64,000 bases of DNA from a virus. Made by a program: the position numbers and the translations under genes. The stretch is from positions 1-64,000 of the IMG/VR virus record IMGVR_UViG_3300044904_000088; one strand, 5' to 3'. Positions 1-64,000 of the stretch are shown piece after piece (position 1 is the first letter of the stretch; the number at the start of each line of letters is the position of its first letter). Under the pieces are notes generated by a model. That model had not been told where the DNA came from, ran no database searches, and saw only the letters and a list, made by a program, of their open reading frames with translations.

Positions 1-50
1 AGGGTCTCGCGCCAGGAGCGCCATGGGGTAGAAGCTTGCGTGGTTGCCAT
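1..50 (-). CDS. XRE-type regulator, N-terminal fragment cut by window edge
   Basis: The first 16 codons (MATTQASTPWRSWRET) match exactly the start of the complete XRE protein at 46,654-46,857; the rest lies left of the window. It shows that another copy of the regulator, and so another early region or the closing end of a circular genome, lies upstream. The ATG is at 48-50, seven bases downstream of a good -10 box. Confidence 0.8.
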   Translation of the reverse strand, partial: MATTQASTPWRSWRET

Positions 51-57
51 GCGCGGC

Positions 58-85
58 AGCCTAGCACGTTATACGGCGTTGTCAA
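58..85 (-). promoter_or_regulatory. Sigma70-like promoter of XRE gene, left copy
   Basis: On the minus strand a TTGACA -35 (80-85) and a TAGGCT -10 (58-63) are separated by 16 bases. Only seven bases lie between the -10 and the ATG at 50-48, so the predicted transcript starts at or next to the start codon (leaderless). The spacer contains the imperfect dyad ACGCCGTATAACGT, a possible operator for the XRE protein. Confidence 0.65.
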
Positions 86-200
86 GCCCCTCGGAGACCT
101 GCCGCTGCTCGCCGTGCCGCTCCTGGCCTGGGCGGGGTCAGCGCGCCGCCAGGACCAGCCTCCCTCGTCTCAACACGGCCCGGAAGTGTTCCCCTGAACG

Positions 201-990
201 TCACGTCAGGGCGAGGGCGGCGATGGCCTTCACCTGTATCGGCGTCAGGGCAGCGCTGAACAAGGCAACCTCTGCCATCTGACCAACGAAGTACTCGGTC
301 GCGCCGCCGCTGCCGTCGTCGTCTGCCCCGATCTTCAGCGTGATCGAGGTATTGGCAAGAGTCGAGTTAGAGATGCTGCCCGTCCAGTCCACCCCGTCGA
401 TGTAGATTTGGTTCGCGCTCCCGGCCTTAGTCCAAGCGAAATGGTGTATGCCATAGGCGAATGCCGTCGGGCTAGTGCTGCCTAGGTCTGCGGTGCGGTC
501 CTTCAGGATGTCCACATAGTTACCCGAGATGGTGCGGAGATAGTAGCCGTTCGCTCCCTTAGAGACGATACCTTGGCCGCTCCCCTGGCTCGGGATATTC
601 ACGAGGGCCATGACGGTGAGATTGTCGCCAAGGTCAAAGGCCGCGTTCTCCACGAGGTAGATGTAGCCGGAACTAAACGCACACGAGTTGGCCGTGGGAT
701 CGCTGAGGGTGAGGCGTCCTTGACCAAAGGCCACCCCAGCCGTTGCGATGCCGCTCAGGTGATTTGGGGACGAGTCGGCGACCTGAGGTCCTGTCTGTTC
801 ATTGAGACGCCAATAGCCCACGAGGGACGGCGTGGCCAGTATCAATCTCGGCAGGGGAGTCAGGGCCGAGCGTCTCGCGCGCCCACTTCTGCGACTGGAC
901 AATAGAGGGGATCGGTGGGTCGGGCGCGATACGCGCGGGCCACACCGGGGCTACGGCCGTGAGGGCCAGTAGCAGCGCGAGCAGGCTCAT
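201..990 (-). CDS. LamG/concanavalin-like tail-associated protein, probably frameshifted
   Basis: Two overlapping frames appear to be one gene. An ATG at 990, 13 bp after the preceding fibre gene, encodes a signal-peptide-like start (MSLLALLLALTAVAPVWPA) and stays open to 799. A second frame open from about 902 to 201 encodes a LamG-type domain (LVGYWRLNEQTG, then DSSPNHLSG), but its only start near its beginning is a TTG. Joining them needs a +1 shift near 840-900. The C-terminal domain should be a sugar-binding jelly roll, as in many phage fibre proteins. This is the last gene of the unit 1 late operon; unit 2 has unrelated genes here. A real frameshift mutation, recoding or a sequence error are all possible. 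Confidence 0.55.
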
Positions 991-1003
991 GCTCGCTACT
1001 GTA

Positions 1004-2506
1004 TTACGAGGTTGCGAGCCCGATCTTGCTGTAGGTCGAGCCGGTCCAGCAATAGAGCCCGCCCGTGATCGACGTGCTGTCGAACCAGAGCGGGGCGACG
1101 TAGCTGCTGCCCGGCGCGCCGGCGTAAACGTATACCAGGTTCGCCCAGCCGATGCCGTCGGTCACTGCCGAGTTGGCCACTAGGACGGCCCCCGTAGCGC
1201 CAATGGTGAGCTTATCGGGAAGGCCCGCACCAGCGCCGAACAGCGAAGCCGTGTAGACGCCCCACCAGGTTGCCGTCGCGACGAACTGCCAGTACCGCGC
1301 CGTCTGCGCAGCGAATGACCAGGTGTCGTCGTTGCTCGTGTAGAAGTTGTGGGTGTCGGCCGTGTACCAGGTCGCGTCGTCGGTGCTGTACTGGACCGTG
1401 CAGGAGCCGACTCGGTCGCCGGAGGCGTTCTGCTTGATGCGCGCTCCGGCGACGCTTTGAGCGGTTTGGAGGTCGATACGCAGGGTGATTACTCCAGCCT
1501 CCTGGTACATGTCGACCGAAGATCCGTCGTTGCCGTCGTTGGCCGGGTCTTCAGTACTGTGAGAGGGCTCTTTCGTAGCTCTAGCCCCCGTCGCATATAG
1601 GGCGACATCCATTCCGGCCGCGTGCCCGACGATGAGGTCGCCGCCTGCAGTCATCGGGTTGGTCATGCCACCGCCGGTCACATCGGCAATCGTGGCGAAG
1701 ACATTGGCCCCGGATGGACTGGCCGCCCCGGTGATAGCCGCCACTTCGTCGCTGCTCAGACCGCCCGCCCCGAACACTGTCTCCGCGCCCGAGTCATCCT
1801 TGACGGCGAGGGCCGGCCCGGTCTTGGCGTAGACGCGCAGCTTCCCGGAGCCGGGAGTGCCCGGAGCCGCCGCTACCGTGGCATCGAGGTAGGTGAACAC
1901 GCCCTCGTCGGCCAGCCCGCTTCCACCCGACACGGCTACCCACGTTCCCGACGTGCCAGCTCCGGTGCAGATGTAAATGCTGCCGTCCTGTGTGACTACG
2001 TAGTCACCCACGGCGAAGGTGCCGGTGATGGGATGGCCCGAGGTCGTGCCCCCCACGTAGCGCGTGGCGGCTACCGCGCCGGTGAGGCCCATCGGCTGGC
2101 CGTTGGCGGCATCGCTTCCTGCCGCACCGGTTGCGCCGACACCTAGCTGCTGGCCCTGGTCCGAGTAGACGTGCCAGCCGTTGTCGTCCCATACCGCCAT
2201 GTAGTCGGCCGGGAGCGTGATCGTCCCGGTGATCGCGTTCGCCGCCACCAGCCCGCCCCGGAACAGTTGGAACGTGTGAGACGAGCTATCAGTATTGACG
2301 ACGGAGATCGTCTTGACGACGGTGACGGTGCCAGCCGGGACGGTGTAGATCGTGGCGGCAGAGGCCGCGAGCTGTCCCTGGTACAGCACCTTGCCCGCGT
2401 CCGCTCCCGTGGAGGTGGTGATCTCGTCTCCGGAGATCGTGCAGGTCAGCTTGCTCGCGGCAGAGGCCACGCCCGCGAGGGTATCGGCAGCGGCGAGGAA
2501 CAGCAT
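1004..2506 (-). CDS. Tail fibre / receptor-binding protein, unit 1
   Basis: A 500-residue protein. The start at 2506 (MLFLAAADTLAGV) lies one base after the stop of the collagen-like gene and matches the start of the unit 2 homologue. The N-terminal half, including a GATGAAGSDAANG stretch and DEGVFTYLD, is shared with unit 2. From about residue 285 the sequence is unit-specific and holds a discoidin-like segment (VQYSTDDATWYTADT, then ARYWQFVATA), a fold often used to bind carbohydrate. The pattern of conserved base and variable tip fits a fibre whose distal end contacts the host. No chaperone gene is recognised downstream. Confidence 0.7.
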   Translation of the reverse strand: MLFLAAADTLAGVASAASKLTCTISGDEITTSTGADAGKVLYQGQLAASAATIYTVPAGTVTVVKTISVVNTDSSSHTFQLFRGGLVAANAITGTITLPADYMAVWDDNGWHVYSDQGQQLGVGATGAAGSDAANGQPMGLTGAVAATRYVGGTTSGHPITGTFAVGDYVVTQDGSIYICTGAGTSGTWVAVSGGSGLADEGVFTYLDATVAAAPGTPGSGKLRVYAKTGPALAVKDDSGAETVFGAGGLSSDEVAAITGAASPSGANVFATIADVTGGGMTNPMTAGGDLIVGHAAGMDVALYATGARATKEPSHSTEDPANDGNDGSSVDMYQEAGVITLRIDLQTAQSVAGARIKQNASGDRVGSCTVQYSTDDATWYTADTHNFYTSNDDTWSFAAQTARYWQFVATATWWGVYTASLFGAGAGLPDKLTIGATGAVLVANSAVTDGIGWANLVYVYAGAPGSSYVAPLWFDSTSITGGLYCWTGSTYSKIGLATS

Positions 2507-2507
2507 G

Positions 2508-2834
2508 TCAGCCTCCCAGGGCGAAAATGCGAAGTATGTTGACGCCAGCCGCTGGCGTTTCCCAGTCGGTGGCGTAGTCGGTCCCGGAGGTCTTGGTGAG
2601 AACCTGGTGGATCGTGCCGCCCGTGGGCACACCCACTCCGTTCGTGCCATTCGTCCCGTTCGTGCCAGGGGCGCCGGGGGCACCAGGGGCACCGCCGCCG
2701 CCACTGCCGCCCCCACCACCGCTGACGCCGCCCGGGCCACCGGCTCCGCCTCCGCCGCCGCCCGCCGCCGTGCCGGGGATGCCCGCCAGCGATGCCTTGC
2801 GGACTTCCTTAGTGACGTGCAGCCGGACGCTCAT
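2508..2834 (-). CDS. Collagen-like short tail fibre protein, unit 1
   Basis: This 108-residue protein starts MSVRLHVTKEVRK at 2834, one base after the stop of the upstream tail gene. Its centre is glycine-rich with GXY triplets (GAPGAPGAPGTNGTNGTNG), and it ends VNILRIFALGG, exactly like its unit 2 homologue. Collagen-like triplets form trimeric stalks in phage fibres. It lacks the roughly 55-residue insert present in the unit 2 copy, part of which (GGGM-NPMT-GGDL) occurs instead inside the next gene of unit 1. Confidence 0.7.
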   Translation of the reverse strand: MSVRLHVTKEVRKASLAGIPGTAAGGGGGGAGGPGGVSGGGGGSGGGGAPGAPGAPGTNGTNGTNGVGVPTGGTIHQVLTKTSGTDYATDWETPAAGVNILRIFALGG

Positions 2835-2835
2835 G

Positions 2836-4608
2836 TCAGTCCACCAACGTCCCGCCGACGATGCCGACATAGGTGCCAGCGCCGCCCGGAACGACGGTCA
2901 TCTCGGTCCGGTAGGTGTCCACGAGCCAGAGGGAATCCTCGCCCATAACCGGGTCCACGACCCCTACCGTGTCGCCCTTCTGCAATCCCGGATGCCCGAC
3001 GATGCCGAAGTCGAAGATGCGCCGGAAGCCGTCCTGCTTCGCAAGCTGGGCCAGGGCCGTGACTCCGGCCTCAGTCGTGGTAGCGATGGCGGTCTCATTG
3101 ACGATCACCCGGCGGATCGCGTTGTTCAGGGACGCCTCCATCGGGCCGGTCACACCTTGCGGCTCCGGCAGGGAGACGAGCCCTACTCCAGCGATGGCGA
3201 CGGCCACCACGTCCGCCCTGGTCGAATCCTTGCCGACGACCTTGACGCGGGTGGCCAGCTCATACTCATCGCTGGCCCGCTCCAGAGAGAGCATGTCCAC
3301 CCCCGCGTGGAACGTGTAGGCCGCAGAGCCGAGGGCGATGGGATCGAAGTGGTAGCCGCCCTGCTCGTCGGCGAAACTCTGAAAGCCGACCATCGTGGCG
3401 AGCTGGCTGAACGCCGCCGCGAAGCTGGTCCCATCCGTCACCTCGAAGTCGGCCACGAGGTAGTCCGTCGTCGTGACGTGGGCCGACGGGAACTGGAGAT
3501 GCGTCAACAGGTCGAGCACGATGTCGCTGACCTGCATGTTCAGATAGACGTAGTTCGACGGATCCCGCACTGCCCCGGACGCGCCCGCTGCCTGTGGATA
3601 GGACACGATGGCGGACTGGACCAGGGCGTTTTTCATCCAGTCTCGCGCCGTCAGGGTGATCTCGCGGACCTTCGAGTCCCGCGTCTCGTCCGGCTTGTCG
3701 AGGAAGCCATAGAAGGTCTGGATCTTGTTAGCGTCATCCCCGTACCACTGGTGAACCCAGATCTTGCGATCGCACACGCAGAGGGGCAACCAGGCCGACC
3801 AGAGGGCCTCGTCCATCGCGGCCAGCTCGCACACCACCTCAAGCCCGTCCGAGTCGGTCTGGAGCGACTTGTCGATGGAGATCCGCTTTACTGGGATGGG
3901 CGCGGTTCCGACCGTGCCGCCCCAGAGCAGCATGGCGTAACAGGTCGTGAACATCCCACCTTCGGGGTTCGTCTGGCCCGCCGCAATGTGGATCGACCAA
4001 TAGCGGTGCGGCCCGGCAGCCACCGATCCTTGAAGTGATCCCTCGGCCCCGGGGTCGATGGTGGAGTCCGTCGTCCAGGTCGTCCCATCGTCGGAATGTT
4101 CGACCGACCAGTGCGCCCAGCAACCAGGGTTGTTCTCCTGAATGATCCCCTGGACCATCCAATGGGACACGATGGTCCCGGCGCCGAGGTCCCAGGAGAA
4201 GCGGCCCTCCCAGGATGCGCCGCCCTCTAGCGTCACGGAGGAGTTCATGCCGAACGTACAGTTTCCCGGCCAGCATGCGTCCCCGTTGGCATCCGTGAGC
4301 GTGTCGCTGTAGTAGCCGGGGACCCAGGGACCGCTGAATGAGGAGGATGCCGTGTAGGGACGGAGCGGAGAGTCGCCGTTCGGCAGTCCGTCGGTCCTGC
4401 TCGGCTGGTGGGTAGACGGGTAATACTGCGCTCCCCCGAAGCACCCGCCGAGGAGGTCCTGCGAGGTCGGGTTGCCTCCAGTCTCGGGCACGTAGTCCGA
4501 CGTCACATCACTGGGGTTCTCCAGTTCCACCAGCGCCCGGAAGCCGTGGGCACCCGCCTGGAACTTAGAGACGAGGATCTCCTCTAGGTCACCGGACAGC
4601 CCTTGCAC
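2836..4608 (-). CDS. Tail tip / baseplate protein, unit 1
   Basis: This 590-residue protein starts with GTG and lies one base downstream of the 122-residue tail gene. The N-terminal third contains a discoidin-like jelly-roll segment (VEHSDDGTTWTTDST, HRYWSIHI), which is a sugar-binding fold. The C-terminal two thirds (WVHQWYGDDANKIQTFYGFL, then TARDWMKNAL) resemble siphovirus distal tail and tail-tip proteins. The unit 2 copy is also 590 residues. Its place after the tape measure and before the fibres supports a role in the tail tip. Confidence 0.65.
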   Translation of the reverse strand: MQGLSGDLEEILVSKFQAGAHGFRALVELENPSDVTSDYVPETGGNPTSQDLLGGCFGGAQYYPSTHQPSRTDGLPNGDSPLRPYTASSSFSGPWVPGYYSDTLTDANGDACWPGNCTFGMNSSVTLEGGASWEGRFSWDLGAGTIVSHWMVQGIIQENNPGCWAHWSVEHSDDGTTWTTDSTIDPGAEGSLQGSVAAGPHRYWSIHIAAGQTNPEGGMFTTCYAMLLWGGTVGTAPIPVKRISIDKSLQTDSDGLEVVCELAAMDEALWSAWLPLCVCDRKIWVHQWYGDDANKIQTFYGFLDKPDETRDSKVREITLTARDWMKNALVQSAIVSYPQAAGASGAVRDPSNYVYLNMQVSDIVLDLLTHLQFPSAHVTTTDYLVADFEVTDGTSFAAAFSQLATMVGFQSFADEQGGYHFDPIALGSAAYTFHAGVDMLSLERASDEYELATRVKVVGKDSTRADVVAVAIAGVGLVSLPEPQGVTGPMEASLNNAIRRVIVNETAIATTTEAGVTALAQLAKQDGFRRIFDFGIVGHPGLQKGDTVGVVDPVMGEDSLWLVDTYRTEMTVVPGGAGTYVGIVGGTLVD

Positions 4609-4609
4609 G

Positions 4610-4978
4610 TCAGTCCTCGACCAGCGTGGCGTCCACGGTCCAGAGGCCGGGCGCGATCTGTGACGGCTTGAGTTCCTCCACGATTACGGTCAGCGTCTCT
4701 TCCGGCGCGACCCAAGTGACCGGCGTGACGGTCTCGTGATAGCCGCTCATCGTGGCCCAATCGGCGTCAGTGACCCACGGGAATGTCACCGTCGCCTGCC
4801 GGCGTGGTAAAGAGCCGCTCTGAATAACCTCGTTCTCGGTGGACGGCGTGCCCGCGATGGTCCCGATGATCCCGACGAGGGTGATGAATGGCGGGTGCTC
4901 AAAGCCGCTGTACTTGCCGTCCTCCACCCAGATCGGGCTGATCGAGCCGAGGGCGAAGCCGGAGGTCGGAGCTGTCAT
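4610..4978 (-). CDS. Minor tail protein (distal-tail-like), unit 1
   Basis: A 122-residue protein starting MTAPTSGFALGSISPIWVED, overlapping the tape measure stop as ATGA. It shares start and length with the unit 2 homologue, which fixes the start although the frame is open much further upstream inside the tape measure gene. It lies directly downstream of the tape measure gene, where distal tail proteins are usually encoded. No domain is recognised with certainty. Confidence 0.65.
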   Translation of the reverse strand: MTAPTSGFALGSISPIWVEDGKYSGFEHPPFITLVGIIGTIAGTPSTENEVIQSGSLPRRQATVTFPWVTDADWATMSGYHETVTPVTWVAPEETLTVIVEELKPSQIAPGLWTVDATLVED

Positions 4979-7623
4979 GGCCGTACTCCGCTGTACGAAC
5001 TGAACCGGGAGTTCTGTTTCTGCATCTCTGCCGCGATCTCGTCGTGGACCATAACGGCGAAGCGCTTGGCCGTCGCCCGGTCGGGGTTGCCCTCGAGCGT
5101 GAGTTGGATCGTGCCGATCGTGACGCCGCCGAGGCCGCCCGTGTTCTGGCTGGCCGGGATCACGGCCTCGCCCTTGTGGATATAGGCGAGCTGGTCGCTG
5201 GCCACGAAGGGCGTGCCGGTGGCGTAGTGCTTGGGTATCACCGGCGCCTTCGGCACATTCGCGCTGCTCGGCGAGCTGACCGTGCCGCCCGGAGTAGACC
5301 AGCTTGCGGTAGGCGGCTTCGCGTCGTTCCACCATGCGTCGATCGCAGCCTGAGCCGGAGGAGCGGCGTTCAGCGCTTCGTTGAATCCGAGGCCGAATTG
5401 CGTCGCTATGTTCGCGCCGTACACATAGGCATCGCTGCCGAGGGCGGCGAGGGCCGTCTCTGTGTCGGTCTGGACCGCCTGCCACATCGTGACCACGTTT
5501 GGATCGAGGCTGGCCAGCCCGTCCTTCATGGCTTGGCTTTGGAGCAGGACGTTGAGCTTGGTCCTCTGCTGAGCCTTCGTGCCGTACTGAGAGTCTTCCT
5601 CGAGCAGCGTCATGTAGGCCGACTGCTGCGTGTAGTACTGCTCTTGAAGCGCGTCCTTCTGTGCCTGGGAGAGCTTCGCATAGGTCTTCTTGTCTGCGAG
5701 GCTCTTCTTGGTCGCATTGAGCGCATCGAGGGCGTCGCGCTCTCGGTAGCTGATCGTGGCCTCGTCCGTGACCGCGGAGAGCGCCTCCGACCACGCGCCC
5801 GACAGCGCGGAGCGGCTACTCTTGATGAGGGCCACTTGAGCGTCCGTGCCCTGGCCGACCGTGGCGGTTGCGCTGTCCATCGTCGACTGGACGGCCGGAA
5901 CGACGCCGCTAAAGGCCGTGGTCGTTGCGGCCGTGATCGACGACTTGCTCCCAGCGAGGGCGACGGCGGAGCCTGAGAAGGTGGCCCCGTAGTCCGGCAC
6001 GGCGGGCGTGACGGTGGGCGTTAGAACGCCAGCGTTGGTGGCCGGCACGGGGGTCGCAGCGGTTCCGTAGCCGTAGGGCTGGCCGGTGATCGGGTTGATG
6101 CTGCCCGCGTTGAACATCGAGTTGTTGGCGGGGTGGGGGGCGCCCAGTTTCACGCCGAGGAGGTAGGGCAGAGCCCCGATCCCGAGCATGGCCGCCAACG
6201 GGGCGAGAGAGACTCCCACGGCTGCTAGGAAGCCGCCACCGAAGGTCGTCCCAAGAGCGCCTCCGACCGTGAGCAGATCCGCGCTCCCGGCCGCCGCTGC
6301 AATCTCAGGGCCGCCAGCCGCTACCGCGCCAGCCTCCGCCTCCACGAGCGCTCCGCCAGCCTCCAAGCCTACGGCGCCAGCGGCAACGTCAACCTCCGGG
6401 GATTGCGCCACGACGGCCGCGGCGACCGCGGGGCCGCCCGCTGCTACCGCCCCGGCCGTCCCGGTGACTTCGGCTCCGCCAGCTGCGGCTCCGCCGCCGA
6501 GCCAGGTGGGGAGAGTCAGACCGAGCTGCTCAGCGATCTTCGGGATGAGGGCACCAGCGAGACTGCCGAACCCGGCTGCGATCTTCGGCGTCATCTGGGC
6601 GCCGATTATCAGGAGCGGCCCGAAGCTCTGGCTGACGGAGGCGAGTGCCCCGCCGATGTTGTGCATGAGCAGCGTGAACTGATTGCCCCAATCGCTGCGG
6701 ATCGCGTCCGCTGCCTTCTGCGTCGCGTCCTGCGTATCGACGGTCGAGGTTTGGAACTGATCGAGGCTGGTGATCCCGGGCTTGAGAGCGTCGGCCAGTT
6801 GCGCGCCGGCCCGCGTGCCGAAGTCCTTGGCGGCCACCTGGGCGCGCTGCAAGGGGTCCTGGATCGAGCTGATCTGGGCGATGAGATCGTTGAGCGTCTG
6901 GCCGGGCTTGAGTTGCTTGATGGCCGTGTTCAGTGCCGTGGGCGCCTTGCTCGCGTCGATGCCTGCGGCGGCGAACATATTGAGCAGGTCGACGCCGTCG
7001 GAGAACTGCATGCCCATCGCGGTCAGCGCCGGCGCCATCTTCTGAAGGGACGTCTGGTCGTCGGTCACGCTCGTCCCGTACTTCTGGTGGCTGGCAACGA
7101 GCTGGTCCATGATCGTCCCCTCGTCGCTGGCCGAGAGGTTCCATGCGTCGGTGACCATCTTGAGCGCCGTCACGGCCTGGGCGTCCTGGCCGGTGGCCGT
7201 CTCGAAGGTCAACATCTTCTGGGTGAAGTCGTCGGCCGCCTGCCCGGACAGATTGAAGCCGCTGATGACCTCTGCCAGCGAGGCCTCGACCGAGTCCATC
7301 GACTGGAGATTGCCTCGGTACATCGAGTCGATGGCAGCGCTCTGCTGGGCGAGCGCCTGGCCCGTTAGCCCAGTGTCAGCCGCAAGCTTCTGAGTGGCGG
7401 CGTCGAGTGCCGCGCCCTGCTGGATGGCGATCCCGAAGAGAGCGCCGGCACCCGCGCCGATGGCGGAGCCCATGGCGCTCCGCAGCTTCGAGCCGAGCTG
7501 CTCTCCCATCGTCTGGCCGGCCGACTTGCCAGCCGTGTTCGCGGCGCTTACGGCGTCGGTCTGGAATTGGCCGGTGTCGAGTTGGAGCCGGACACTAGCG
7601 AATATGTCGGCAATGGCGCTCAT
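4975..7623 (-). CDS. Tape measure protein, unit 1
   Basis: This 882-residue protein scaffolds the tail tube and sets its length. Evidence is its size, its position right after the tail assembly chaperone pair (start overlaps their stop), long Ala/Gln-rich helical segments, and hydrophobic stretches (AIGAGAGALFGIAI near residue 60 and an Ala/Gly/Val-rich region around 380-500). The first 380 residues and the C-terminus are very similar to unit 2, while the middle (about 380-560) is divergent and carries indels. From the usual proportionality of tape length to tail length I infer a tail of very roughly 130 nm. Confidence 0.9.
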   Translation of the reverse strand: MSAIADIFASVRLQLDTGQFQTDAVSAANTAGKSAGQTMGEQLGSKLRSAMGSAIGAGAGALFGIAIQQGAALDAATQKLAADTGLTGQALAQQSAAIDSMYRGNLQSMDSVEASLAEVISGFNLSGQAADDFTQKMLTFETATGQDAQAVTALKMVTDAWNLSASDEGTIMDQLVASHQKYGTSVTDDQTSLQKMAPALTAMGMQFSDGVDLLNMFAAAGIDASKAPTALNTAIKQLKPGQTLNDLIAQISSIQDPLQRAQVAAKDFGTRAGAQLADALKPGITSLDQFQTSTVDTQDATQKAADAIRSDWGNQFTLLMHNIGGALASVSQSFGPLLIIGAQMTPKIAAGFGSLAGALIPKIAEQLGLTLPTWLGGGAAAGGAEVTGTAGAVAAGGPAVAAAVVAQSPEVDVAAGAVGLEAGGALVEAEAGAVAAGGPEIAAAAGSADLLTVGGALGTTFGGGFLAAVGVSLAPLAAMLGIGALPYLLGVKLGAPHPANNSMFNAGSINPITGQPYGYGTAATPVPATNAGVLTPTVTPAVPDYGATFSGSAVALAGSKSSITAATTTAFSGVVPAVQSTMDSATATVGQGTDAQVALIKSSRSALSGAWSEALSAVTDEATISYRERDALDALNATKKSLADKKTYAKLSQAQKDALQEQYYTQQSAYMTLLEEDSQYGTKAQQRTKLNVLLQSQAMKDGLASLDPNVVTMWQAVQTDTETALAALGSDAYVYGANIATQFGLGFNEALNAAPPAQAAIDAWWNDAKPPTASWSTPGGTVSSPSSANVPKAPVIPKHYATGTPFVASDQLAYIHKGEAVIPASQNTGGLGGVTIGTIQLTLEGNPDRATAKRFAVMVHDEIAAEMQKQNSRFSSYSGVRP

Positions 7624-8320
7624 GCGTCGTAGCCCTTCACGCTGCCCGGAACGAGCCGGGCGAGGCGTCGCATCTGGGCTCGGCCCCTGGCCTTGCTAGG
7701 CGGCGGGGTGGGCGGCAGATACCACGGCGGTTCGAGGTCATGGCGAGTTACGGCCACCTCGTACACCGGCACGGGTGCCCGCACGTTCGCGTCGTAGGTC
7801 GCCGCGTAGGTCTCGGCCATTCGGTCTCGCTGGTCTTTCGCTATGCGCGTTTGCGCCGCCTGGTGGTAGAGGAGGACCTGGCGGTAGGTGAAGGCTTGCT
7901 CGAGGTCGTCAGGGCGGATATGCCAGACGGCAAGGGCCCACTCGAGGAGTTCTGCGAGGCTGACTCCACGGCGCGGCGGATGATCGTCAGAACGAGGGCC
8001 GTCTGGCTGGAAGTTTTTGGGTAGGCCACTTCTAGGAGCTTGTCGTAGATCACGTCGATGTCGCGTTCCGTAGCGTCCTCTAGGTCGCCCAGGGCATGCG
8101 TCTGGTCGTAGGCCAACACGAGCTCGCGCTCGGTGTCGGACATAGCCCGTACGCCCTCTGGTGTGTCGGTGCGAACGTTGGCCAGCGCGATAAGCGCGGA
8201 CTCGAGCCGTTCCTGCCATTCCCGGTTCGGCCGCCACTTGAGCTCGGGCACGAGGCGCTCGACGCCACCGATGGTGAAGGGGAGGAGACCGCGAACGATC
8301 TCCTCCTCGTTCGCGCTCAT
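7620..8320 (-). CDS. Tail assembly chaperone, long form made by -1 frameshift, unit 1
   Basis: Reading the short-form frame to codon 102 and slipping back one base at CCCAAAA (8015-8021) gives a 233-residue protein that continues NFQPDGPRSDD and SLAELLEWALAVW and ends at 7620, overlapping the tape measure ATG. The downstream frame has no sensible start of its own. This is the gpG/gpGT arrangement known from lambda and most siphophages; the fusion helps coat the tape measure protein before tube polymerisation. Unit 2 has the same architecture. Confidence 0.85.
7841..8320 (-). CDS. Tail assembly chaperone, short form (gpG-like), unit 1
   Basis: A 159-residue protein read in the zero frame, starting MSANEEEIVRGLLPF and overlapping the tail tube gene stop (ATGA). 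Residues 1-100 are well conserved with unit 2; the part after the slippery codons turns Ser/Thr/Arg-rich, as expected for read-through of the unshifted frame. It lacks a 16-17 residue Cys-containing segment that is present in unit 2 after the residues ERELVLAYD. Confidence 0.8.
   Translation of the reverse strand: MSANEEEIVRGLLPFTIGGVERLVPELKWRPNREWQERLESALIALANVRTDTPEGVRAMSDTERELVLAYDQTHALGDLEDATERDIDVIYDKLLEVAYPKTSSQTALVLTIIRRAVESASQNSSSGPLPSGISALTTSSKPSPTARSSSTTRRRKRA
8015..8021 (-). other. Programmed -1 frameshift slippery site, unit 1
   Basis: The heptamer C-CCA-AAA (X-XXY-YYZ) lies in phase with the chaperone frame: the CCA codon begins at 8020, exactly 300 bases after the ATG. Shifting back one base joins it to the conserved downstream frame. 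The heptamer is kept in unit 2 although the adjacent bases differ. Confidence 0.85.
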
Positions 8321-8844: not shown

Positions 8845-8919
8845 TTGCGACTCCCCGCGAGAGGGGCTTGCCTCACCGCCCCCACTCGCATTCAGGGCGG
8901 ATCGGTTGCGCCAGCGGCG
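8845..8919 (-). promoter_or_regulatory. Conserved leader with SD-overlapping hairpin before tail tube gene
   Basis: This is one of the few gaps between structural genes. The minus strand reads GCCCCTCTCGCGGGGAGTCG just before the ATG, so the GGGGAG ribosome-binding site can pair with the upstream CCCC. The same arrangement, nearly base for base, precedes the unit 2 gene (56,351-56,424). It could tune translation of the tail tube protein or act as an RNA processing site; no promoter is clear. Confidence 0.35.
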
Positions 8920-13653: not shown

Positions 13654-13654
13654 G

Positions 13655-13726: not shown

Positions 13727-13813
13727 TGCATTCGCCTTTCGTGCGCATTTCGTGCGCCAGAGACGCCGACGCCCCGCCCGATGCGGACGAGGCGCCGTAC
13801 ATTGCTCATCGAC

Positions 13814-14101: not shown

Positions 14102-14128
14102 CGGCCTTGTTCCCTTTCCGAACGGTGA

Positions 14129-49786: not shown

Positions 49787-49787
49787 G

Positions 49788-50288: not shown

Positions 50289-50290
50289 TG

Positions 50291-52063: not shown

Positions 52064-52064
52064 G

Positions 52065-55826: not shown

Positions 55827-56350
55827 ACCGTCAAGCGCTCAATGCTGAACGGAGCCAGGGTCGGGACGGCGGGATCGCCATAGGCCGTGAATGTCACAGG
55901 CGTGCCGGCGGTCGAGGAGACGCCGAACTCGCAGGTGATGTTGCCCGTCTGGAGCGCGTCGGTCAGGGTGACCACCACGGGCTGGCCGTCCGGCCCAGTG
56001 GCCTTCATCACGACGTCGTGATGATCGGCGGTCAGGACAACGCCGATGCTCTGGGTGAGCTTGGTCATGCCAGGCGTGCCGGCCACGCTGGCGATGGACG
56101 TGTTCTGAAGGGCCGCCTGGAGCTTCGAGAGCGCCAGCTCGTTGAGCTTGGTGGTCAGCTCGGCCTTGATCTTGGTGATCCTGGTCAAGCCCTTGAGCGG
56201 GCCGACGGCCCCCTGAAACTCGGGCTCGTAACGGGTCACGGTGATGACGAGCTTGGCCGGGTCCTCGGACGCGCCCAGCTCGATGCTGTTGTACTGGAGA
56301 CTGTCTGGCGGTCCGAAGAAGACGTCCTCGGCCGTGATCGTCATTGGCAT
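55823..56350 (-). CDS. Major tail tube protein, unit 2
   Basis: A 175-residue protein, collinear with unit 1 and with the same GGGGAG leader hairpin. Differences cluster in the C-terminal third (ITCEFGVSSTAGTPVTFTAY versus ITCTFGTTETAGTPVTFTGY). Confidence 0.75.
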   Translation of the reverse strand: MPMTITAEDVFFGPPDSLQYNSIELGASEDPAKLVITVTRYEPEFQGAVGPLKGLTRITKIKAELTTKLNELALSKLQAALQNTSIASVAGTPGMTKLTQSIGVVLTADHHDVVMKATGPDGQPVVVTLTDALQTGNITCEFGVSSTAGTPVTFTAYGDPAVPTLAPFSIERLTV

Positions 56351-56424
56351 TTGCGACTCCCCGCGAGAGGGGCTTCCCTCCCCGCCCCCACTCGCATTCA
56401 GGGCGGATCGGTTGCGCTAGCGCG

Positions 56425-56844
56425 CTAGGTTACGGTTTCGGTCCTCGTGACCGGGTACTCGATGGTGCTGTGCCAGAGGGGCTGTCGGGTGTCTGGGTCG
56501 GTCTCGGGACTGGACGCCGACACATACGAGTGCCACGTACCCAGGCCCGACGCCGCCTGACGCCCCCCCCTGTCGTGGAAGACGGCTTCGACCGCCATGC
56601 CCATCGCCTCGGCGTCTGCCGGGGTCTTCCCATAAGAGCGCACGCCGAGAACCACCATCCGAATCGGGAGGCGGCGACGTGGCATGCCATCGAGCCAGTT
56701 GACGACGATGAACCTTTGATATTCGCTCGGCCCCTTGGCGTCGCCCGGAGCGGGCTCGAAGGCGCGGACCGGAGCGCGGAGCGCGATGATCCCCGCGTCC
56801 GCATTGAGTTCCGCGATCGCGCTGGTCAGGGGTGAAGAGATCAT
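56425..56844 (-). CDS. Tail terminator-like protein, unit 2
   Basis: A 139-residue protein, start MISSPLTSAIAELNADAGII at 56844 by ATGA overlap, the same choice as in unit 1. Placed between the gp10-like and tail tube genes. Confidence 0.6.
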   Translation of the reverse strand: MISSPLTSAIAELNADAGIIALRAPVRAFEPAPGDAKGPSEYQRFIVVNWLDGMPRRRLPIRMVVLGVRSYGKTPADAEAMGMAVEAVFHDRGGRQAASGLGTWHSYVSASSPETDPDTRQPLWHSTIEYPVTRTETVT

Positions 56845-57416
56845 TTGAGCGCCTGGTTCCATGCGGCCTTGCGAGCTTTGGCGGCGGCGACGTTGCCTGC
56901 CTTGGCGGAGCCGCCGGAGGCCGTCACCATCGCCCGGGCTGCCCCGCCTGCGATGCGAGCAGCCATCGCGGGGAGCACGTACTTACCGGTGCCCGGCACA
57001 CCCGCATTGACAGCCGGGAGGAAGAATGGCCGGGGGGCCTCCTTGACCGTGCCATGCTCCGCGAAGTGGGCCAGCGGCGAGCTGAACCACATTACGAGCA
57101 CCATCTGGTCGGCTGGCACCTTGAGGCCGCGGGGCTTCTGCGACGAGGCGGCCAGACTCGAGTCGCCCGCGACCAGCTTGCCCATCGCCCACACGGCGCA
57201 GTGCCCGGTGTCCGCCATCATCGGGACGCCGCGCTTAGCTGCCTCGGCGGCATCTTTGGGCGCACGGCTGGAAGCGTCGGCGATGATCTGCGTGCCGAGG
57301 GCGAACAGGCCATCCGCAATGCCGAGCCCGGCCGCGTCCAGGGCGGCCTGGTTCATGACGATCGCGGCGGCGCGGTTGGCGAGCACCTTGGCGGAAGGAG
57401 CTGCGGAGACTGGCAT
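56841..57416 (-). CDS. HK97 gp10-like head-tail joining protein, unit 2
   Basis: A 191-residue protein with the same HFAEHGTVKEAPRPFFLPA core as unit 1. Seven bases separate it from the head closure stop, whereas the two genes abut in unit 1. Confidence 0.75.
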   Translation of the reverse strand: MPVSAAPSAKVLANRAAAIVMNQAALDAAGLGIADGLFALGTQIIADASSRAPKDAAEAAKRGVPMMADTGHCAVWAMGKLVAGDSSLAASSQKPRGLKVPADQMVLVMWFSSPLAHFAEHGTVKEAPRPFFLPAVNAGVPGTGKYVLPAMAARIAGGAARAMVTASGGSAKAGNVAAAKARKAAWNQALK

Positions 57417-57423
57417 CGTCAGG

Positions 57424-57822
57424 TCACTTCACTAGTTTGGCGTCGAGCTGGAGATGGTGGCCACGGCCGGCGGGATCCACGACGCCGCTGACTTCCCAAT
57501 ACGGGCCGGCCGTGTCGGTGTTGAGGTGGATGCGATCCGCCGTGATCACGTCGACGTCGGGCAGCAAGAAGATCCGCGCCCAGATGTCCTGAGCGCCGCC
57601 CTGGCTGAACAGCGGGACCTCGGTTGCCTTGAGCGCTTGGATGGAGCCCATCTGCCACGTCGGGTTGGCGGGGTCGATCGGCTCCGGATCATCCAGCGCG
57701 ACCCAGTCCCGGATCGGGTGCCCGTAGTCGGTCAGTTGCTCGACCGGCGGCGTGCCCGCGATCATGCGGTCGTAGGCCCGCTCGATGACAAGCAACTGCC
57801 GAAGGCCCTGGGCGATGCTCAT
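57424..57822 (-). CDS. Head closure (stopper-like) protein, unit 2
   Basis: A 132-residue protein differing from unit 1 at a single residue as far as I can see (ALDDPEP versus ALKDPEP). Such conservation next to strongly diverged glycosyltransferase genes shows very uneven divergence along the late region. Confidence 0.6.
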   Translation of the reverse strand: MSIAQGLRQLLVIERAYDRMIAGTPPVEQLTDYGHPIRDWVALDDPEPIDPANPTWQMGSIQALKATEVPLFSQGGAQDIWARIFLLPDVDVITADRIHLNTDTAGPYWEVSGVVDPAGRGHHLQLDAKLVK

Positions 57823-58508
57823 GGCGACACCGGACCGGGGTACTGCTCTTTGATCTGTCGGCGGACGCTGATCCGGTGCATGCCTACGTTCGTCCCGGGG
57901 AGGCCCAGCTGCTCCACGAAGGCCTGCCCGGCGACCATGTCCGGCACTTGGCCGATGCGAAAGCCAGCGGCACGGACGTTCATGCAGAAGTAGATGTCCT
58001 GCCCCCCCCACCGGCGGGCGTTGTCCGCAGGACTCGGATGCCTCTCCCAGCCCCTTCCGGTGTGGAAGTCGACGTACTGCCAGTCGGTGGAGAACCACGG
58101 GCGGGCGAGCTTCTCAAACACCTCGCGGCGAATGAGGGTGCAGCCGAGGCCGCACCATTCGATATCGCCCTTCGGATCCCTTACGAGACAGCCCCAGCCA
58201 CTTCCACCGACGGGGTAGTCGACCGCCGCGACGTCCCAGCCCTCGTCCAGCAAGGCCAGGCTCCGCTCCAGGGCATCTGGAGGCGGGATCACGTCTTCCT
58301 CGATCAGAAGCAGAACCTCTGCCCCCGTGGCGAGCCCCTTCTCAACGATGGCTTCGTCGCAGTCCGGAATCGGCAAGTCGTGGCTGAACACCCAACCGCG
58401 GAAGTCGTGCCCGCGTGCCTGCGCATTGGCCACGTTCGCCATCACCGCGTCGACGGTGCGCGAATGGATTAGCCCACGGGATGGGGTGCAGACGACAAAG
58501 CTGCTCAT
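57819..58508 (-). CDS. Glycosyltransferase-like protein, unit 2
   Basis: A 229-residue protein starting MSSFVVCTPSRGLIHSRTVD. Homologous to 10,307-10,993 but clearly diverged in the first 80 residues (VANAQARGHDFRGWVFSHDL versus TRSMPLWDWHFTHDL). The acidic EEDVIPP site is kept. Confidence 0.65.
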   Translation of the reverse strand: MSSFVVCTPSRGLIHSRTVDAVMANVANAQARGHDFRGWVFSHDLPIPDCDEAIVEKGLATGAEVLLLIEEDVIPPPDALERSLALLDEGWDVAAVDYPVGGSGWGCLVRDPKGDIEWCGLGCTLIRREVFEKLARPWFSTDWQYVDFHTGRGWERHPSPADNARRWGGQDIYFCMNVRAAGFRIGQVPDMVAGQAFVEQLGLPGTNVGMHRISVRRQIKEQYPGPVSP

Positions 58509-59263
58509 GCCTTCACCAGATCCTTCGGCGCGGTCCAGTCGGCCCACCAGATGCGCAGTGCCTCGTCGTCCATCGCCCCAAGCTCGCGCCAGTGGAAACC
58601 GGTGCCCGCGGGGTATGACGTGGCTTCCAGCGCGGTCCGGCCGTGGCGCACCTTGGCGCGCGTCTGCTCGAAGGTCCGGTACGGGTAGTGGCGCAGGACG
58701 ATCGGCTGCCCGATGAAGCTGGCCGCGCCGACCACCTCGGTAGACAGGGGCTCGCCTTCGAGGGCATGGTTCCCAACCGTGGGGACGTTCCACGGGCCGG
58801 GGCGCCAGACGACCTTCCGCTGGTTCGAGTAGCGACGCCGCCAGACGATGCGCCGGAAGGGGTCAGGCTCGTTCGAATCGTCGGTCGGCTGGGGCACCAT
58901 CTCCCACGAGCCGACCGGCACGGAGCGGCCGGTGTAGGCGGGAAGGACATCGGCGATGCGCTGGCCAGTCGGGCAGAACCACCACTCGTCAAAGTCCGCC
59001 GGGACGACCCACTCCGCGCCCATCTCGATTGCGAGCGAGACGAGACGCATCATCGTTTCTTGCTGGAGGTAGGCGAAGCGTGGCTCGTCCACGATGAACA
59101 GACGCGGGTCGCCTATGGACTCCAAGATCTTCCGTGTCCCGTCGGTCGAGTTGTTATCGGCCACGATGACGGCGTCGCATTCAGCCAGCATGTGAAGGGC
59201 AAACGGCCGAGCGGTGTCCGCCTCATTCCGACACATCGCAAGACCCACGACCTTGACGGTCAT
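58505..59263 (-). CDS. Family 2-like glycosyltransferase, unit 2
   Basis: A 252-residue protein starting MTVKVVGLAMCRNEADTARP. VIVADNNSTDGTRKILESIG and VPADFDEWWF mark the donor-binding site. The region corresponding to the DPVGSGR segment of unit 1 is seven residues shorter here. ATGA-coupled at both ends. Confidence 0.8.
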   Translation of the reverse strand: MTVKVVGLAMCRNEADTARPFALHMLAECDAVIVADNNSTDGTRKILESIGDPRLFIVDEPRFAYLQQETMMRLVSLAIEMGAEWVVPADFDEWWFCPTGQRIADVLPAYTGRSVPVGSWEMVPQPTDDSNEPDPFRRIVWRRRYSNQRKVVWRPGPWNVPTVGNHALEGEPLSTEVVGAASFIGQPIVLRHYPYRTFEQTRAKVRHGRTALEATSYPAGTGFHWRELGAMDDEALRIWWADWTAPKDLVKA

Positions 59264-59847
59264 AGAACGTCCGCCGTCATGGTCAGGCGCAAGGTCGCGC
59301 GGTAGAGAGCGAACGGGCCGCCGTCCGTCAGCGCGGCGATCTCCTGGCCGATCGCGGGCCGGATATCGGTCCCGCAGGCCGGGCACTTCATGTGGCTGGG
59401 CCGCTCCGGCGAACGAGTGCTCAAGTGCCGGGCGGGCGGCCAGTGCCAGTGAGCTTCGTTGTAGCCGGCGAGACGAAGGTGATTGATCCACGCCGAGTCC
59501 AGCGACTCCCAATGGCGCGCCTTGATCTCGTCTGGCAGGTCCGGCAGGCGGCGGGTGAAGCTGCCCCGGTAGCGGACCGTGCCGTGCCAGCAGCCCCAGG
59601 TCTCGTGCATGAAGTAGGGGAGGCCGCACCACTCGCGCGGACACCGCTCGAAGCTCCAGACCGCGCCGGTGGGCAGGACCATGTCCTGCTCTACGACCAT
59701 GAAGTCGTCGCCGGATCGCCATGCCTCACGCAGGAGGCGCCAGTACGCCTCGGTGTCGGCGGCCTTGATCTGGATGCGCTCAGCGCCGACCGGGAGCGCG
59801 GCCACGGCCTCCGGGAACGACGTGACGTAGGGGTAGATCACGCGCAT
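59260..59847 (-). CDS. Glycosyltransferase-like protein, third of cluster, unit 2
   Basis: A 195-residue protein starting MRVIYPYVTSFPEAVAALPV. The DDFMVVEQDMVLPTG site and CPACGTDIRP knuckle are kept; substitutions are concentrated at residues 20-35 (GAERIQIKAADTEAYW). Confidence 0.5.
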   Translation of the reverse strand: MRVIYPYVTSFPEAVAALPVGAERIQIKAADTEAYWRLLREAWRSGDDFMVVEQDMVLPTGAVWSFERCPREWCGLPYFMHETWGCWHGTVRYRGSFTRRLPDLPDEIKARHWESLDSAWINHLRLAGYNEAHWHWPPARHLSTRSPERPSHMKCPACGTDIRPAIGQEIAALTDGGPFALYRATLRLTMTADVL

Positions 59848-60284
59848 CGCGGCTTCCTCAGCACGGCGCGGCCCCACGGTCCCCACTCGGCCTCGCCCGT
59901 CTCCCAGGAGACCATCTCCCATAGGCGGATGCCGTACTCTGCGTTCGCGACCATGCGGCCCGTGAAGTACCAGAAGGACTGCTCGACCCAGAAGCTGACG
60001 TGGGTCGGGTCCGCGACCGCCGCCCAGCAGGGGAACAGCGGCACGATGATCTCGAACGTCCCGCCGGGCTCCAGGACCCGCCAGACCTCGTTGAATGCGT
60101 CGATCCGCTCCTGGCCGGCCGGCACGTGCTCCATGAGGTGCGAGCAGCGGGCCGCCTCAACGGTGTCGTGCCCACACGGGATGCCCTCCTGGATACGCCG
60201 TTTCATGACGCCCTGGCCGTGAATAGGGTCGAGATTCGTGAAGCCTTCGTTGAGCGCCAACCCCCCGCCGATGTCGATCTTCAT
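59838..60284 (-). CDS. SAM-dependent methyltransferase, short class I, unit 2
   Basis: A 148-residue protein, MKIDIGGGLALNEGFTNLDP, almost identical to the unit 1 enzyme. Coupled to the connector gene stop (the ATG overlaps TGA). Confidence 0.7.
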   Translation of the reverse strand: MKIDIGGGLALNEGFTNLDPIHGQGVMKRRIQEGIPCGHDTVEAARCSHLMEHVPAGQERIDAFNEVWRVLEPGGTFEIIVPLFPCWAAVADPTHVSFWVEQSFWYFTGRMVANAEYGIRLWEMVSWETGEAEWGPWGRAVLRKPRCA

Positions 60285-61147
60285 CAGTAGATCACGACCT
60301 CCTCGTCCGTCCGAAGTGCCGTGATGATGTCCTGCCGCTCGTCCTCCAAACCGAAGCCCGCACGGACCGGATACTTCTCGCTCCACTCGCCGACCGTCTG
60401 GCCCTGCAGGCCTGGGACGGAGTTGAGGTCGAGCTTGACGAGGTGCAGTTGAACGCGCTTCCGGCTGAGCGTGTCGTCGAACCGCGTGTACGTCACGGTG
60501 ATCAGTTGGTTCGGGTACCAATAGCCGAAGCCGAACGGGTTGCCGAAGCCCCAGCCTCCCCACCCCCACGCCGGGTTCGGGCCCGTGTTGAGGCGCCGGA
60601 TCATGAGTCCGGTCCGCGACAGAACGTAGTCAGCCGGTTCCAGCGTTATATCGCAGTCGATGACCTGCTGGATGCTGGAGGCCCGGTTGTGGAGCATCAG
60701 GAGATCGCCACCGCGACGCTGGGCCGAGTGCATGTACAGCTCGGTGACGCTCCCCAGCGGGCCGACGGCCTTCTCGATCGCCTCCTGCTCGGAGTCGAGG
60801 TAGAACTGCAGCGCTTCGTCAGGCAACTCCGAGCGGATGACCTGCCGAAGGCTGGTGACGCTGAGCAGCGCGGGCACCACGCCCGCCTCGAAGGCTGCGG
60901 AGTAATCGGAGAACGACGAGCCAGCGGCGTCCGAGACGCGCGAGCGATACCAGGCACCAGGGTGCCCGGTGGGGGTCTCGTCGTCGATCGGGTAAAGGTA
61001 CGTCCCAGACACGAGGGCAGCGGTTGCGACTTCGGCCCATGGACCCGTGTTTGCTTCAGCCGACTCCACCCGGAGCAGCGCGCCGGTGCCATAGGCAATC
61101 AGCAGCGTGTCCGGATCCGAGATTACGAAGCTGACTTGCTGTCCCAC
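60284..61147 (-). CDS. Head-tail connector (gp6-like) protein, unit 2
   Basis: A 287-residue protein with GTG start preceded by GGGGAGC. Same length as unit 1 with a handful of substitutions (LLSVTSLRQVIRSELPDEAL versus LLSVADFRQVVRSELPDEAL). Confidence 0.7.
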   Translation of the reverse strand: MGQQVSFVISDPDTLLIAYGTGALLRVESAEANTGPWAEVATAALVSGTYLYPIDDETPTGHPGAWYRSRVSDAAGSSFSDYSAAFEAGVVPALLSVTSLRQVIRSELPDEALQFYLDSEQEAIEKAVGPLGSVTELYMHSAQRRGGDLLMLHNRASSIQQVIDCDITLEPADYVLSRTGLMIRRLNTGPNPAWGWGGWGFGNPFGFGYWYPNQLITVTYTRFDDTLSRKRVQLHLVKLDLNSVPGLQGQTVGEWSEKYPVRAGFGLEDERQDIITALRTDEEVVIY

Positions 61148-61213
61148 GTTTGCTCCCCAGAGACGCCGGCGCCCCGCCCGATGCGGACGAGGCGCCGTGC
61201 ATCGCTCATCGAC

Positions 61214-61492
61214 TTACGCCGCCGACCGGATCGCGCCCTCGGGATCCGCTGAGGCGGCCACGGTCTCTTGCGTCGCGGCCCTTGCCTCAGGCGCGGGCGC
61301 GGGTGAGGCGGCCGGCTGTGGCTTGGGTCCGAAGGTGGGTTCGAATGGATCGAAGGCATCCGGGTGCCTGCGCAGGATCGGGTGCCCTTCGACGATGGTG
61401 TCGCCCTCGCGGACCCAGATGTTGCCGCCCACGAGGAACGTCTTGCGAGCTCGGTACAGCCCGAACTCTGTTCGGATCAGCTTCTCGGCCAT
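61214..61492 (-). CDS. Small capsid-adjacent protein, unit 2
   Basis: A 92-residue copy of 13,814-14,101; the conserved first 55 residues are followed by a shortened Pro/Ala-rich tail. The ATG context is identical in both units. Confidence 0.6.
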   Translation of the reverse strand: MAEKLIRTEFGLYRARKTFLVGGNIWVREGDTIVEGHPILRRHPDAFDPFEPTFGPKPQPAASPAPAPEARAATQETVAASADPEGAIRSAA

Positions 61493-61519
61493 CGGCCTTG
61501 TTCCCTTTCCGAACGGTGA

Positions 61520-61543
61520 GGCGGCGGCTGAGGGGCCGCCGCC
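61520..61543 (-). terminator. GC-rich hairpin after capsid gene, unit 2
   Basis: The same 9-bp stem and loop as at 14,129-14,152, including flanking bases. Conservation in a non-coding stretch supports a function. Confidence 0.45.
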
Positions 61544-61564
61544 GCGTTCAGCTAGTCGCTGCGG

Positions 61565-63064
61565 TTAGGAATGGGCCGCGAGCACGAAGGCGTTGGGGAC
61601 GAGGAGCTTGGCGCCGGTGCGCCAGCGGCAGTAGATGCCGCGCTGTCCGAGCACGTTGCCGGACCCGTCGAACATCTGCGGAATGAACTCCGTGGCCAGG
61701 CCGAGTCGGTCGACGACCACGTAGCCGGTGGCGAAGTCTCCGAAGACGTCGTAGTTCGTCTTCGAGGGCGTACCGGCGAAGGTGGCATCCATGTAGGAGG
61801 CCTCGAACACCGGGTAGCCGTGCAGGGTCGCGGAGAGCGGGTCGTAGATGCTGTTGGCCGGCTGGCCCGCGACGCCCAACTGGCGGTACTTCTGGAGCAT
61901 GCCGAGGTTGGCCATGTGAGCGGCGCGCCCGCCATTGCGGAAGCGCGGTCCCAAGGTCAATTCCTGGGTGTCGAGGGCGTCCAGATCGAACGTCCCGGTC
62001 GTCACCGCCCTGGTCCCGTTCGCGACTAGCGCAGCGACGAGACCCCAGGGCTCGTTCGTGCCTGAGCCGGTGATGAACTTGTTGGCTTCGAGGACGTCCT
62101 TGGCATCCGCGATGATCCGACCGAGTTCGCTGGAGATTGCGGCGGCGCCGTAGTCCTCCTGGTACTCGGCGGTGAACTGGACCAGCACGTGGCCCCGGAC
62201 CGGAGTCACGGTCAGGTCCGTGAAGTCGGACGGCGCGACGTCGGACGCTGGCGCGACTTCGGAGGCGGCATAGGAGGCCGTCACGCCCGCCGTCGCGACA
62301 GGCTCCCAGGCCTTGGTGACGATCGTTTCGATGCGGGCGAGGGGCTGACCCGTTTTGGGGTTGGTCTGCCGCATCGGGCAGGCCGCGCCCACGTTGGTCA
62401 GGATGAAGGTCGGGTCGATGGTGAACGGGATGGCATAGCCGCCGTCCGCGCCGGTGTAGGTCTGCAGGGCAGCCTGCATCCGCGGGCTGAGCGAACCGCG
62501 GCCGCCAGTCGCGTAGCGCGCCCACGCTTCCTGGTACAGCGGATCGCTCGTGCCGAGGATGTGGCGGCTGACCCAGCCGTGCTCCTGATCGGCATGCTTG
62601 GTGAGCAGCCGCTCGACGGCAGCCCGGAAGCGGTCTGCCTCAGCGCCCGTCTGGGCCGAGGGGAAGGCGATCTTCTCGATGACGCGCTTCGCGCCGTCGA
62701 GATAGGCCTTCGGCAGCTCGTCGATCGAACTGACCTGCTGGCGGTATGCCGCCAGGTCGTGCAGATTCTCGGGCACGCCCCGCTTGACGTTGAACATGGG
62801 GAAGGCCGGGCCCTCGACGCCGCGAGGAGACTGCTGGCCAGCAAGCGCTTTGATGTCCTCCGAGCGAATCGTCAGCTCTTCGATGCTGGCGCCGAGCTGG
62901 TCGAGCAAGCCGCCCTTGCCCATGAGCTGCTCGTATTCCTGGTGCTGCGGCTCGGTGAAGGGCTTGCCGTCCGCGAGGGCGTCGAGCTCCTTGACCCTGT
63001 CGCGCGCCTCGGCATCGGCCGCCTTGAAGGCGTCGAGGCCACGAAGCGATCCGATGTCGATCAT
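61565..63064 (-). CDS. Major capsid protein, HK97 fold, unit 2
   Basis: A 499-residue protein, MIDIGSLRGLDAFKAADAEA. The mature part is nearly identical to unit 1; the delta domain (residues 30-110, for example ASIEELTIRSEDIKALAGQQ) shows most of the changes, matching the changes in the partner protease. Confidence 0.92.
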   Translation of the reverse strand: MIDIGSLRGLDAFKAADAEARDRVKELDALADGKPFTEPQHQEYEQLMGKGGLLDQLGASIEELTIRSEDIKALAGQQSPRGVEGPAFPMFNVKRGVPENLHDLAAYRQQVSSIDELPKAYLDGAKRVIEKIAFPSAQTGAEADRFRAAVERLLTKHADQEHGWVSRHILGTSDPLYQEAWARYATGGRGSLSPRMQAALQTYTGADGGYAIPFTIDPTFILTNVGAACPMRQTNPKTGQPLARIETIVTKAWEPVATAGVTASYAASEVAPASDVAPSDFTDLTVTPVRGHVLVQFTAEYQEDYGAAAISSELGRIIADAKDVLEANKFITGSGTNEPWGLVAALVANGTRAVTTGTFDLDALDTQELTLGPRFRNGGRAAHMANLGMLQKYRQLGVAGQPANSIYDPLSATLHGYPVFEASYMDATFAGTPSKTNYDVFGDFATGYVVVDRLGLATEFIPQMFDGSGNVLGQRGIYCRWRTGAKLLVPNAFVLAAHS

Positions 63065-64000
63065 CGCCGGTGTCTCCCTTGCATTCGCTTGTTCCACTCC
63101 CTATCGGAGCGTCGGGTGGAAAGTGCGGCAATCGCCGCTTGGTCCAGGACGGCCTCGCCCTGGTGAAGAACGGCCAGAGTACCCAGCGCGAAGTCGTAAC
63201 CCGCGCGAGCGTCCGTGGCCTTGGGCTTGGGCAGGAGAGCGCGAACCGTGCCCTCGAGCGTGTCGATGCGGTCGACCATTCCGGCGGCCTTGGCCTTGGC
63301 CGCGAGCAGCGTTCGGCCGCCGCCGTAGTCGGCAGCGACTGCCCCGGGCGTGGTGCCGCGGCCCTTCGCGACGTCGCCGAGGAACATGCCGTAGAAGGTG
63401 TCGATCTGGTCCTGGAGGGCCGCGCGCGCGTCGTCTGAGAGCGGGGCGAAACTGGAGAGTTCCGTCTTGTATGGGCCTGCCGAGACGAGCGTGATCGCCA
63501 CGCCCTGCATCTCGAGGGCCTCGCTGTCGTCCTCATGCGCCGCGAAGACGCCGATGGAGCCGACCTCGCCCGAAGGTGTGCAGACGATCTGGTCGCACTG
63601 CGACGCGATCCAATACGCGGCAGACGCGCAGAGCGTGTTGACGCAGGCCACGATTGGCTTCGCCTTGCCCGCGACCGACCGGATGTAGGCCGCAAACTCG
63701 GGCACGCCGTCAGTCGATCCGCCCGGCGAGTCGATGTCGAAGACGACGGCGGTGATGGCGCTGTCCTTGAGCGCGTCATCGAGGTCGGCTCGCATCGCCT
63801 CGACGCTCGTGCCGCCGGACATGTCCTCCATGAGGGACATGCGCTGGCTGATCGTGCCGTACATCGGGATGATCGCCACCGACCCCACGGCACCGCCGCC
63901 GGTGCGGTCGCCATTGAACTGCGCGGCGGCTGCGAGGCGCCGCTCGATCTCCTCGGAACTGAGCCGGCCGCCAGCCGCCCGGAAGGAGACGAGCTCTGCG
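63061..64000 (-). CDS. Capsid maturation protease, C-terminal part, unit 2
   Basis: The gene runs off the right edge; about 312 C-terminal residues are visible. They keep FDIDSPGGSTDG, the Ser in CASAAYW and AGPYKTE, so the active site is intact. The C-terminal tail (TLAVLHQGEAVLDQAAIAAL) differs from unit 1. Confidence 0.88.
   Translation of the reverse strand, partial: AELVSFRAAGGRLSSEEIERRLAAAAQFNGDRTGGGAVGSVAIIPMYGTISQRMSLMEDMSGGTSVEAMRADLDDALKDSAITAVVFDIDSPGGSTDGVPEFAAYIRSVAGKAKPIVACVNTLCASAAYWIASQCDQIVCTPSGEVGSIGVFAAHEDDSEALEMQGVAITLVSAGPYKTELSSFAPLSDDARAALQDQIDTFYGMFLGDVAKGRGTTPGAVAADYGGGRTLLAAKAKAAGMVDRIDTLEGTVRALLPKPKATDARAGYDFALGTLAVLHQGEAVLDQAAIAALSTRRSDREWNKRMQGRHRR

Follow-up and report, generated by a model that had tools for sequence, protein, structure and literature searches.

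In a de Bruijn graph, edges overlap by k bases, and at k=127 a contig that starts from a branching vertex begins with a 127-mer that is also present elsewhere. The metagenome assemblies of the JGI are made with metaSPAdes at k=33, 55, 77, 99, and 127 (PMC7171226; PMC10604447). In the work on CheckV, repeats at contig ends were found to be often k-mers of the assembler, and contigs of IMG/VR with repeated genomes were regarded as probable assembly artefacts (PMC8116208). Variant phages on common graph components (Phables, PMC10563150) and chimeric viral contigs (PMC5610896) are likewise known problems.

The stretch of DNA analyzed here ("the window") comprises 64,000 bases and is the first part of an IMG/VR-type record of 64,518 bp, the first base of the window being the first base of the record. 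Like the wrapped contigs described with CheckV, the record exceeds the length of one genome, has an end repeat of length k, and repeats the gene order in a second lap. In contrast to them, the second lap is a diverged strain (~87% identity), and the test for repeated genomes by k-mer frequency may therefore not flag the record. The Phables components with variation and the chimeric contigs are similar in that related phages lie on chained or mixed paths, but here the paths were deduced from the contig alone. The record is very probably an assembly chimera, in which a wrap-around has chained two strain variants, and not a phage with two genomes.

The 127-bp repeat at the start of the record

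The initial annotation had described an identical repeat of 127 bp, and the repeat comparison confirmed it exactly. Positions 1–127 are the same as 46,808–46,934, and the mismatches begin at base 128. Beyond the repeat there is partial similarity up to about base 149, and then none. The first copy is read as the branching vertex of an assembly graph with k=127. The second copy includes the 5′-end of an XRE gene together with the region upstream of it, and it forms the joint between unit 1 on its left and unit 2 on its right. Unit 1 (128–46,807) represents one lap of the genome with nearly all genes on the minus strand, and it is assigned to the path of a strain A, which is possibly mosaic. Unit 2 (46,935–64,000, minus strand) is assigned to the path of a strain B; it runs from the tail fibre to the S49 protease and extends to base 64,518 of the record.

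Of the XRE gene, the repeat contains the first 17 codons, together with about 77 bp of upstream DNA. The gene (46,654–46,857, minus strand) is the first gene of the early region and encodes an XRE/HTH regulator, which matched the Pfam family HTH_3 with an E-value of 9.5e-5, just below the cutoff of that family, and a PHROG annotated as transcriptional regulator. It had been proposed that the window also begins inside an XRE gene at its left edge. The 17 codons are indeed present there, but the gene runs leftward, from 46,857 to 46,654 in the second copy, and the left edge of the window is the end of the contig, as the parent record of 64,518 bp starts at the same base.

An exact repeat of length k, starting with the very first base, was thus found at a contig end. 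For a contig with a random start, the chance that the exact match ends after exactly 127 bases was estimated to be about 2.3e-4 (4 of ~17,100 start positions in unit 1). Two points can be raised against a wrap-around. First, the second contig end at 64,518 has no repeat elsewhere within the record, and no neighboring contig was found in IMG/VR with either the core of the 127-mer or a 60-mer from near the record end. Second, at the vertex the assembler passed from the end of unit 1 to unit 2, a step that paired reads could have supported.

Two units and a one-unit relative

The late genes of the two units are collinear and on the same strand, over 1,762–17,118 in unit 1 and 48,829–64,513 in unit 2. 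The identity was 86.6%, based on 14,981 ungapped columns from position 1,923 on. The recurrence of the late genes had been annotated for 0.2–17.3 kb and 47–64 kb; order and strand were verified from 1,762 onward, but the regions 150–1,761 and 46,957–48,828 are not homologous at the nucleotide level and encode different tail-tip genes. The strain-specific tail-tip genes are located at 201–2,506 in unit 1 (minus strand; laminin-G-like and F5/8 type C) and at 46,964–48,249 in unit 2 (minus strand; including a phrog_2448 protein). Further genes, all on the minus strand, encode the tape measure protein (phrog_1272; 4,975–7,623 in unit 1 and 52,430–55,081 in unit 2), the major capsid protein (Pfam Phage_capsid; 14,174–15,673 and 61,565–63,064), and the S49-type head protease (Pfam Peptidase_S49; 15,670–17,157 and from 63,061 on, where it is cut by the record end). 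The portal protein (18,418–20,292, minus strand, Pfam Phage_portal) and the large subunit of the terminase (20,493–22,328, minus strand, Pfam TerL_nuclease and TerL_ATPase) are present in unit 1 only, as unit 2 stops before the portal gene.

For 15 shared genes, the dN/dS values between the units ranged from 0.03 to 0.28, with 0.28 for the major capsid protein. In most of these genes, the distance between A and B was similar to the distances of A and of B to the closest relative. Purifying selection together with distances of this size argues that the units represent independently maintained genomes. The agreement of both ends in order and strand could also be expected for genuine terminal redundancy, that is, for one phage with direct terminal repeats that are about 17 kb long and have diverged. 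However, packaging repeats are identical copies, whereas the two copies differ by about 13% and contain replaced genes, and the ends of the closest relative overlap by only 145 bp. Ordinary terminal redundancy was rejected because of the ~13% divergence of the copies, and this explanation retains practically no probability.

The closest relative was IMGVR_UViG_3300039251_000013 (G001), a record of 48,303 bp with one unit, the late region of which mostly showed 75–92% nucleotide identity to the window. Its 145-bp end overlap contains one mismatch. The window region 41,692–43,069 aligned without interruption across the closure of this record (91.5% identity over 1,379 bp), which confirms a natural closure. 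Along the closed circle, the chain of matches covered 46,028–46,234 of the window and continued from 48,262 on into unit 2, and thus passed through the joint of the two units. The natural genome, as seen in this relative, is one self-closing unit. Since its circle carries the late-to-early joint of the window, the record corresponds to about 1.39 laps of one genome of ~47 kb. The two records share most of the gene order, the late-to-early joint, and the lack of an integrase. They differ in that the relative has one unit and no nucleotide match to the repeat or to the region 43.9–46.0 kb, which includes the Tas gene described below. A second relative (G003) was 99.99% identical to the first over 28.4 kb. 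No copy of the 127-bp repeat was found in the relatives G001–G004. The major capsid protein is related to those of actinobacteriophages of Gordonia, Rhodococcus, and Mycobacterium with about 30% identity, but this similarity is a distant one and restricted to the protein level. A megablast search with the first 25 kb did not yield a match among 50,697 phage records.

The units share exact runs of 252 bp (14,003–14,254), 166 bp (at 7,845), and 152 bp (at 14,895), and there are only four places in unit 1 where an exact match to unit 2 reaches 127 bp or more. Because these three runs are longer than k, the A and B paths may switch inside the units. In addition, the early region of unit 1 leads into unit 2, and it may thus belong to either strain; it could be A, B, or both. 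Thus, unit 1, too, cannot be regarded as a proven genome of one strain, and it may be a mosaic; neither unit is to be read as a clean haplotype.

Integration genes and the origin of the tandem arrangement

Profile searches with positive controls detected neither a tyrosine integrase (PF00589) nor a serine recombinase (PF00239) in the record and in its closest relative, in agreement with the initial annotation, which had reported that no integrase is visible. In the window, no tRNA was found. No host-like genes were recognized among the proteins and families searched, and at both ends of the record the sequence is still that of the phage. Searches of GTDB genomes for a host or prophage, one with the terminase and one with Tas, did not result in a confirmed case. 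A more distant relative, IMGVR_UViG_3300036766_001059 (G004), has a serine recombinase at 21,432–21,851, which is missing in the record and in the closest relative, and the lifestyle may thus differ within the group.

These results bear on the explanation that one host chromosome carries two related prophages in tandem, each of them starting with the 127 bp as a common attachment core. Tandem integration would be expected to leave a direct repeat where each unit begins, and the record does begin at the repeat. However, the repeat is situated in the promoter and 5′-end of the XRE gene and not at an attachment site beside an integrase, the attachment core would have the length of k only by coincidence, and the one-unit relative has neither an integrase nor a copy of the repeat. 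The absence of integrase and recombinase, of a tRNA, and of host-like genes in the searched families, together with the lack of the repeat in all four relatives, makes tandem prophages highly unlikely.

Head-to-tail concatemers arise in phage replication, and co-infecting relatives often recombine. Two co-infecting or co-resident genomes might therefore have recombined at the early promoter and been kept as one molecule, either as a phage-plasmid dimer or as a replication concatemer, and the repeat would be a possible place of this recombination. Such a heterodimer leaves unexplained why the record starts exactly 127 bp before the divergence. It would have a length of about 93 kb, twice the 48-kb unit of the relative, and a related record of dimer length was not found. 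A real heterodimer or concatemer of this kind is improbable, and a stable heterodimeric phage DNA in which two genomes with 13% divergence are joined at a common early promoter region is equally improbable.

In the favored explanation, a wrap-around of the assembly, two related, circular-mapping phages of ~47 kb would have been present in one metagenome, where circular mapping would be obtained with circular DNA or with linear DNA whose ends are permuted or terminally redundant. Both phages would have in common at least 127 bp where the early region begins, namely the XRE promoter and 5′-end, followed by different tail-tip genes. In a de Bruijn graph with k=127, the common stretch would form one vertex with two exits. 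The assembler would have left this vertex on strain A, circled the genome once, and returned to the vertex, and would then have taken the second exit on strain B until it was stopped at 64,518 by coverage or branching. What was observed is the exact repeat at the first base, the circular-mapping relative, the collinearity along 1.39 laps, and no integration genes; which assembler was used, that two strains were present, and how the path ran through the graph are what we infer for this record.

The initial annotation had favored a phage-plasmid or circularly permuted genome with two strain variants that were chained by the assembler. The chaining of strain variants is borne out by the k=127 signature and by the one-unit relative with the same joint, and it is further backed by the lack of integration genes and of recognizable host DNA. 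A genome that maps as a circle was likewise supported, but specific support for a phage-plasmid was not obtained, as a linear phage that is circularly permuted or terminally redundant would give the same circular shotgun mapping. A match to a replication-initiation family at 33,438–34,142 (phrog_2447, 2e-30) belongs to a family that is also carried by phages, and the proteins searched did not include a recognizable partition gene. The two genome units in tandem, as named in the heading of the initial annotation, should not be taken for a physical arrangement and are most likely an assembly artefact.

The Tas gene and its candidate stem-loop array

Unit 1 of 47 kb contains three genes for DNA methyltransferases (22,791–23,699, 27,814–29,343, and 35,133–36,092), two of the N6/N4 type and one of the C5 type. 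An intein was considered for the second of these, but inspection of the sequence by eye revealed no sign of it. An SbcC/SbcD-like gene pair (37,718–41,222) adjoins a gene of a phage metallopeptidase family (36,697–37,404).

An open reading frame of 409 amino acids at 43,904–45,133 (minus strand) matched the NCBIfam TIGR-Tas model with an E-value of 6.5e-24 and 85 bits, which is below the cutoff of 100, and the PDB entry 9mty by sequence with 2.5e-10. It encodes a Nop-only Tas of the TIGR-Tas family and appears to carry an array of stem-loop guides in frame within its own coding sequence. Tas relatives in actinobacteriophages have a length of about 235–250 amino acids, compared to 409 here, and the extra length is mainly due to an N-terminal stretch and to later insertions, one of which is located just before the C-terminal helix. 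The stem-loop units are found in the N-terminal stretch and in the last insertion. Each unit consists of a 13-nt stem, a 30-nt loop with the core TGAGATCGA, and a second 13-nt stem. Based on core and stem pairing, eight units were located on the minus strand, with the T of the core at 45,116, 45,053, 44,978, 44,918, 44,846, 44,777, 44,087, and 44,021. The spacings of all eight are multiples of three, and the cores lie in one codon phase. Two units precede the conserved C-terminal helix and would thus be translated if the protein is complete.

A relative (L049, 3,222–4,792), the Nop part of which is 58% identical, contains four units in the same phase as in the record, of which one lies in the upstream ORF and two precede the C-terminal helix. 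The covariation of the stems was strong across 12 units: 91% of the cells were paired, 11 of the 13 pairs were changed on both sides, and the score was reached by none of 500 shuffles, although this count is inflated because core and stem pairing had been used to choose the units. A scan that made no use of the core had also shown an excess of 30-nt loops in the Tas stretch. The TIGR-like spacers had no self-targets in the record or in the closest relative. An AlphaFold model of the ORF made without an alignment had a mean pLDDT of 38 and was not used.

The units in the Tas ORF resemble the stem-loops of TIGR arrays, but in the latter, an intergenic region is described between the subarrays (PMC12045711). 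In mycobacteriophage relatives, similar hairpins are situated in front of tas and not inside it. The layout of the array is possibly new. Stem-loop units with loops of about 30 nt were also seen before Tas-like genes in the Mycobacterium phage prophiFSAT01-1 (gp26; L052, 1,633–1,857) and in the Mycobacterium phage Euphoria before gp70, a "transposase" (L053, 1,549–1,883). The Tas-like genes behind these units are annotated as hypothetical protein or transposase, and gp26 of prophiFSAT01-1 may be an array that was annotated as a gene.

Taken together, the tandem genome in this record is most likely a database artefact of a known kind; as a real tandem genome, it would be surprising. The record is a useful example, as checks based on k-mer frequency may miss a wrap-around that continues on a diverged strain. 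Such a wrap-around can inflate the genome length, and wherever an exact run reaches k bases or more, strains can be mixed. The phage belongs to a group that has been little sampled. The Tas locus, although a by-product of the analysis, is more interesting than the tandem question and deserves a study of its own.
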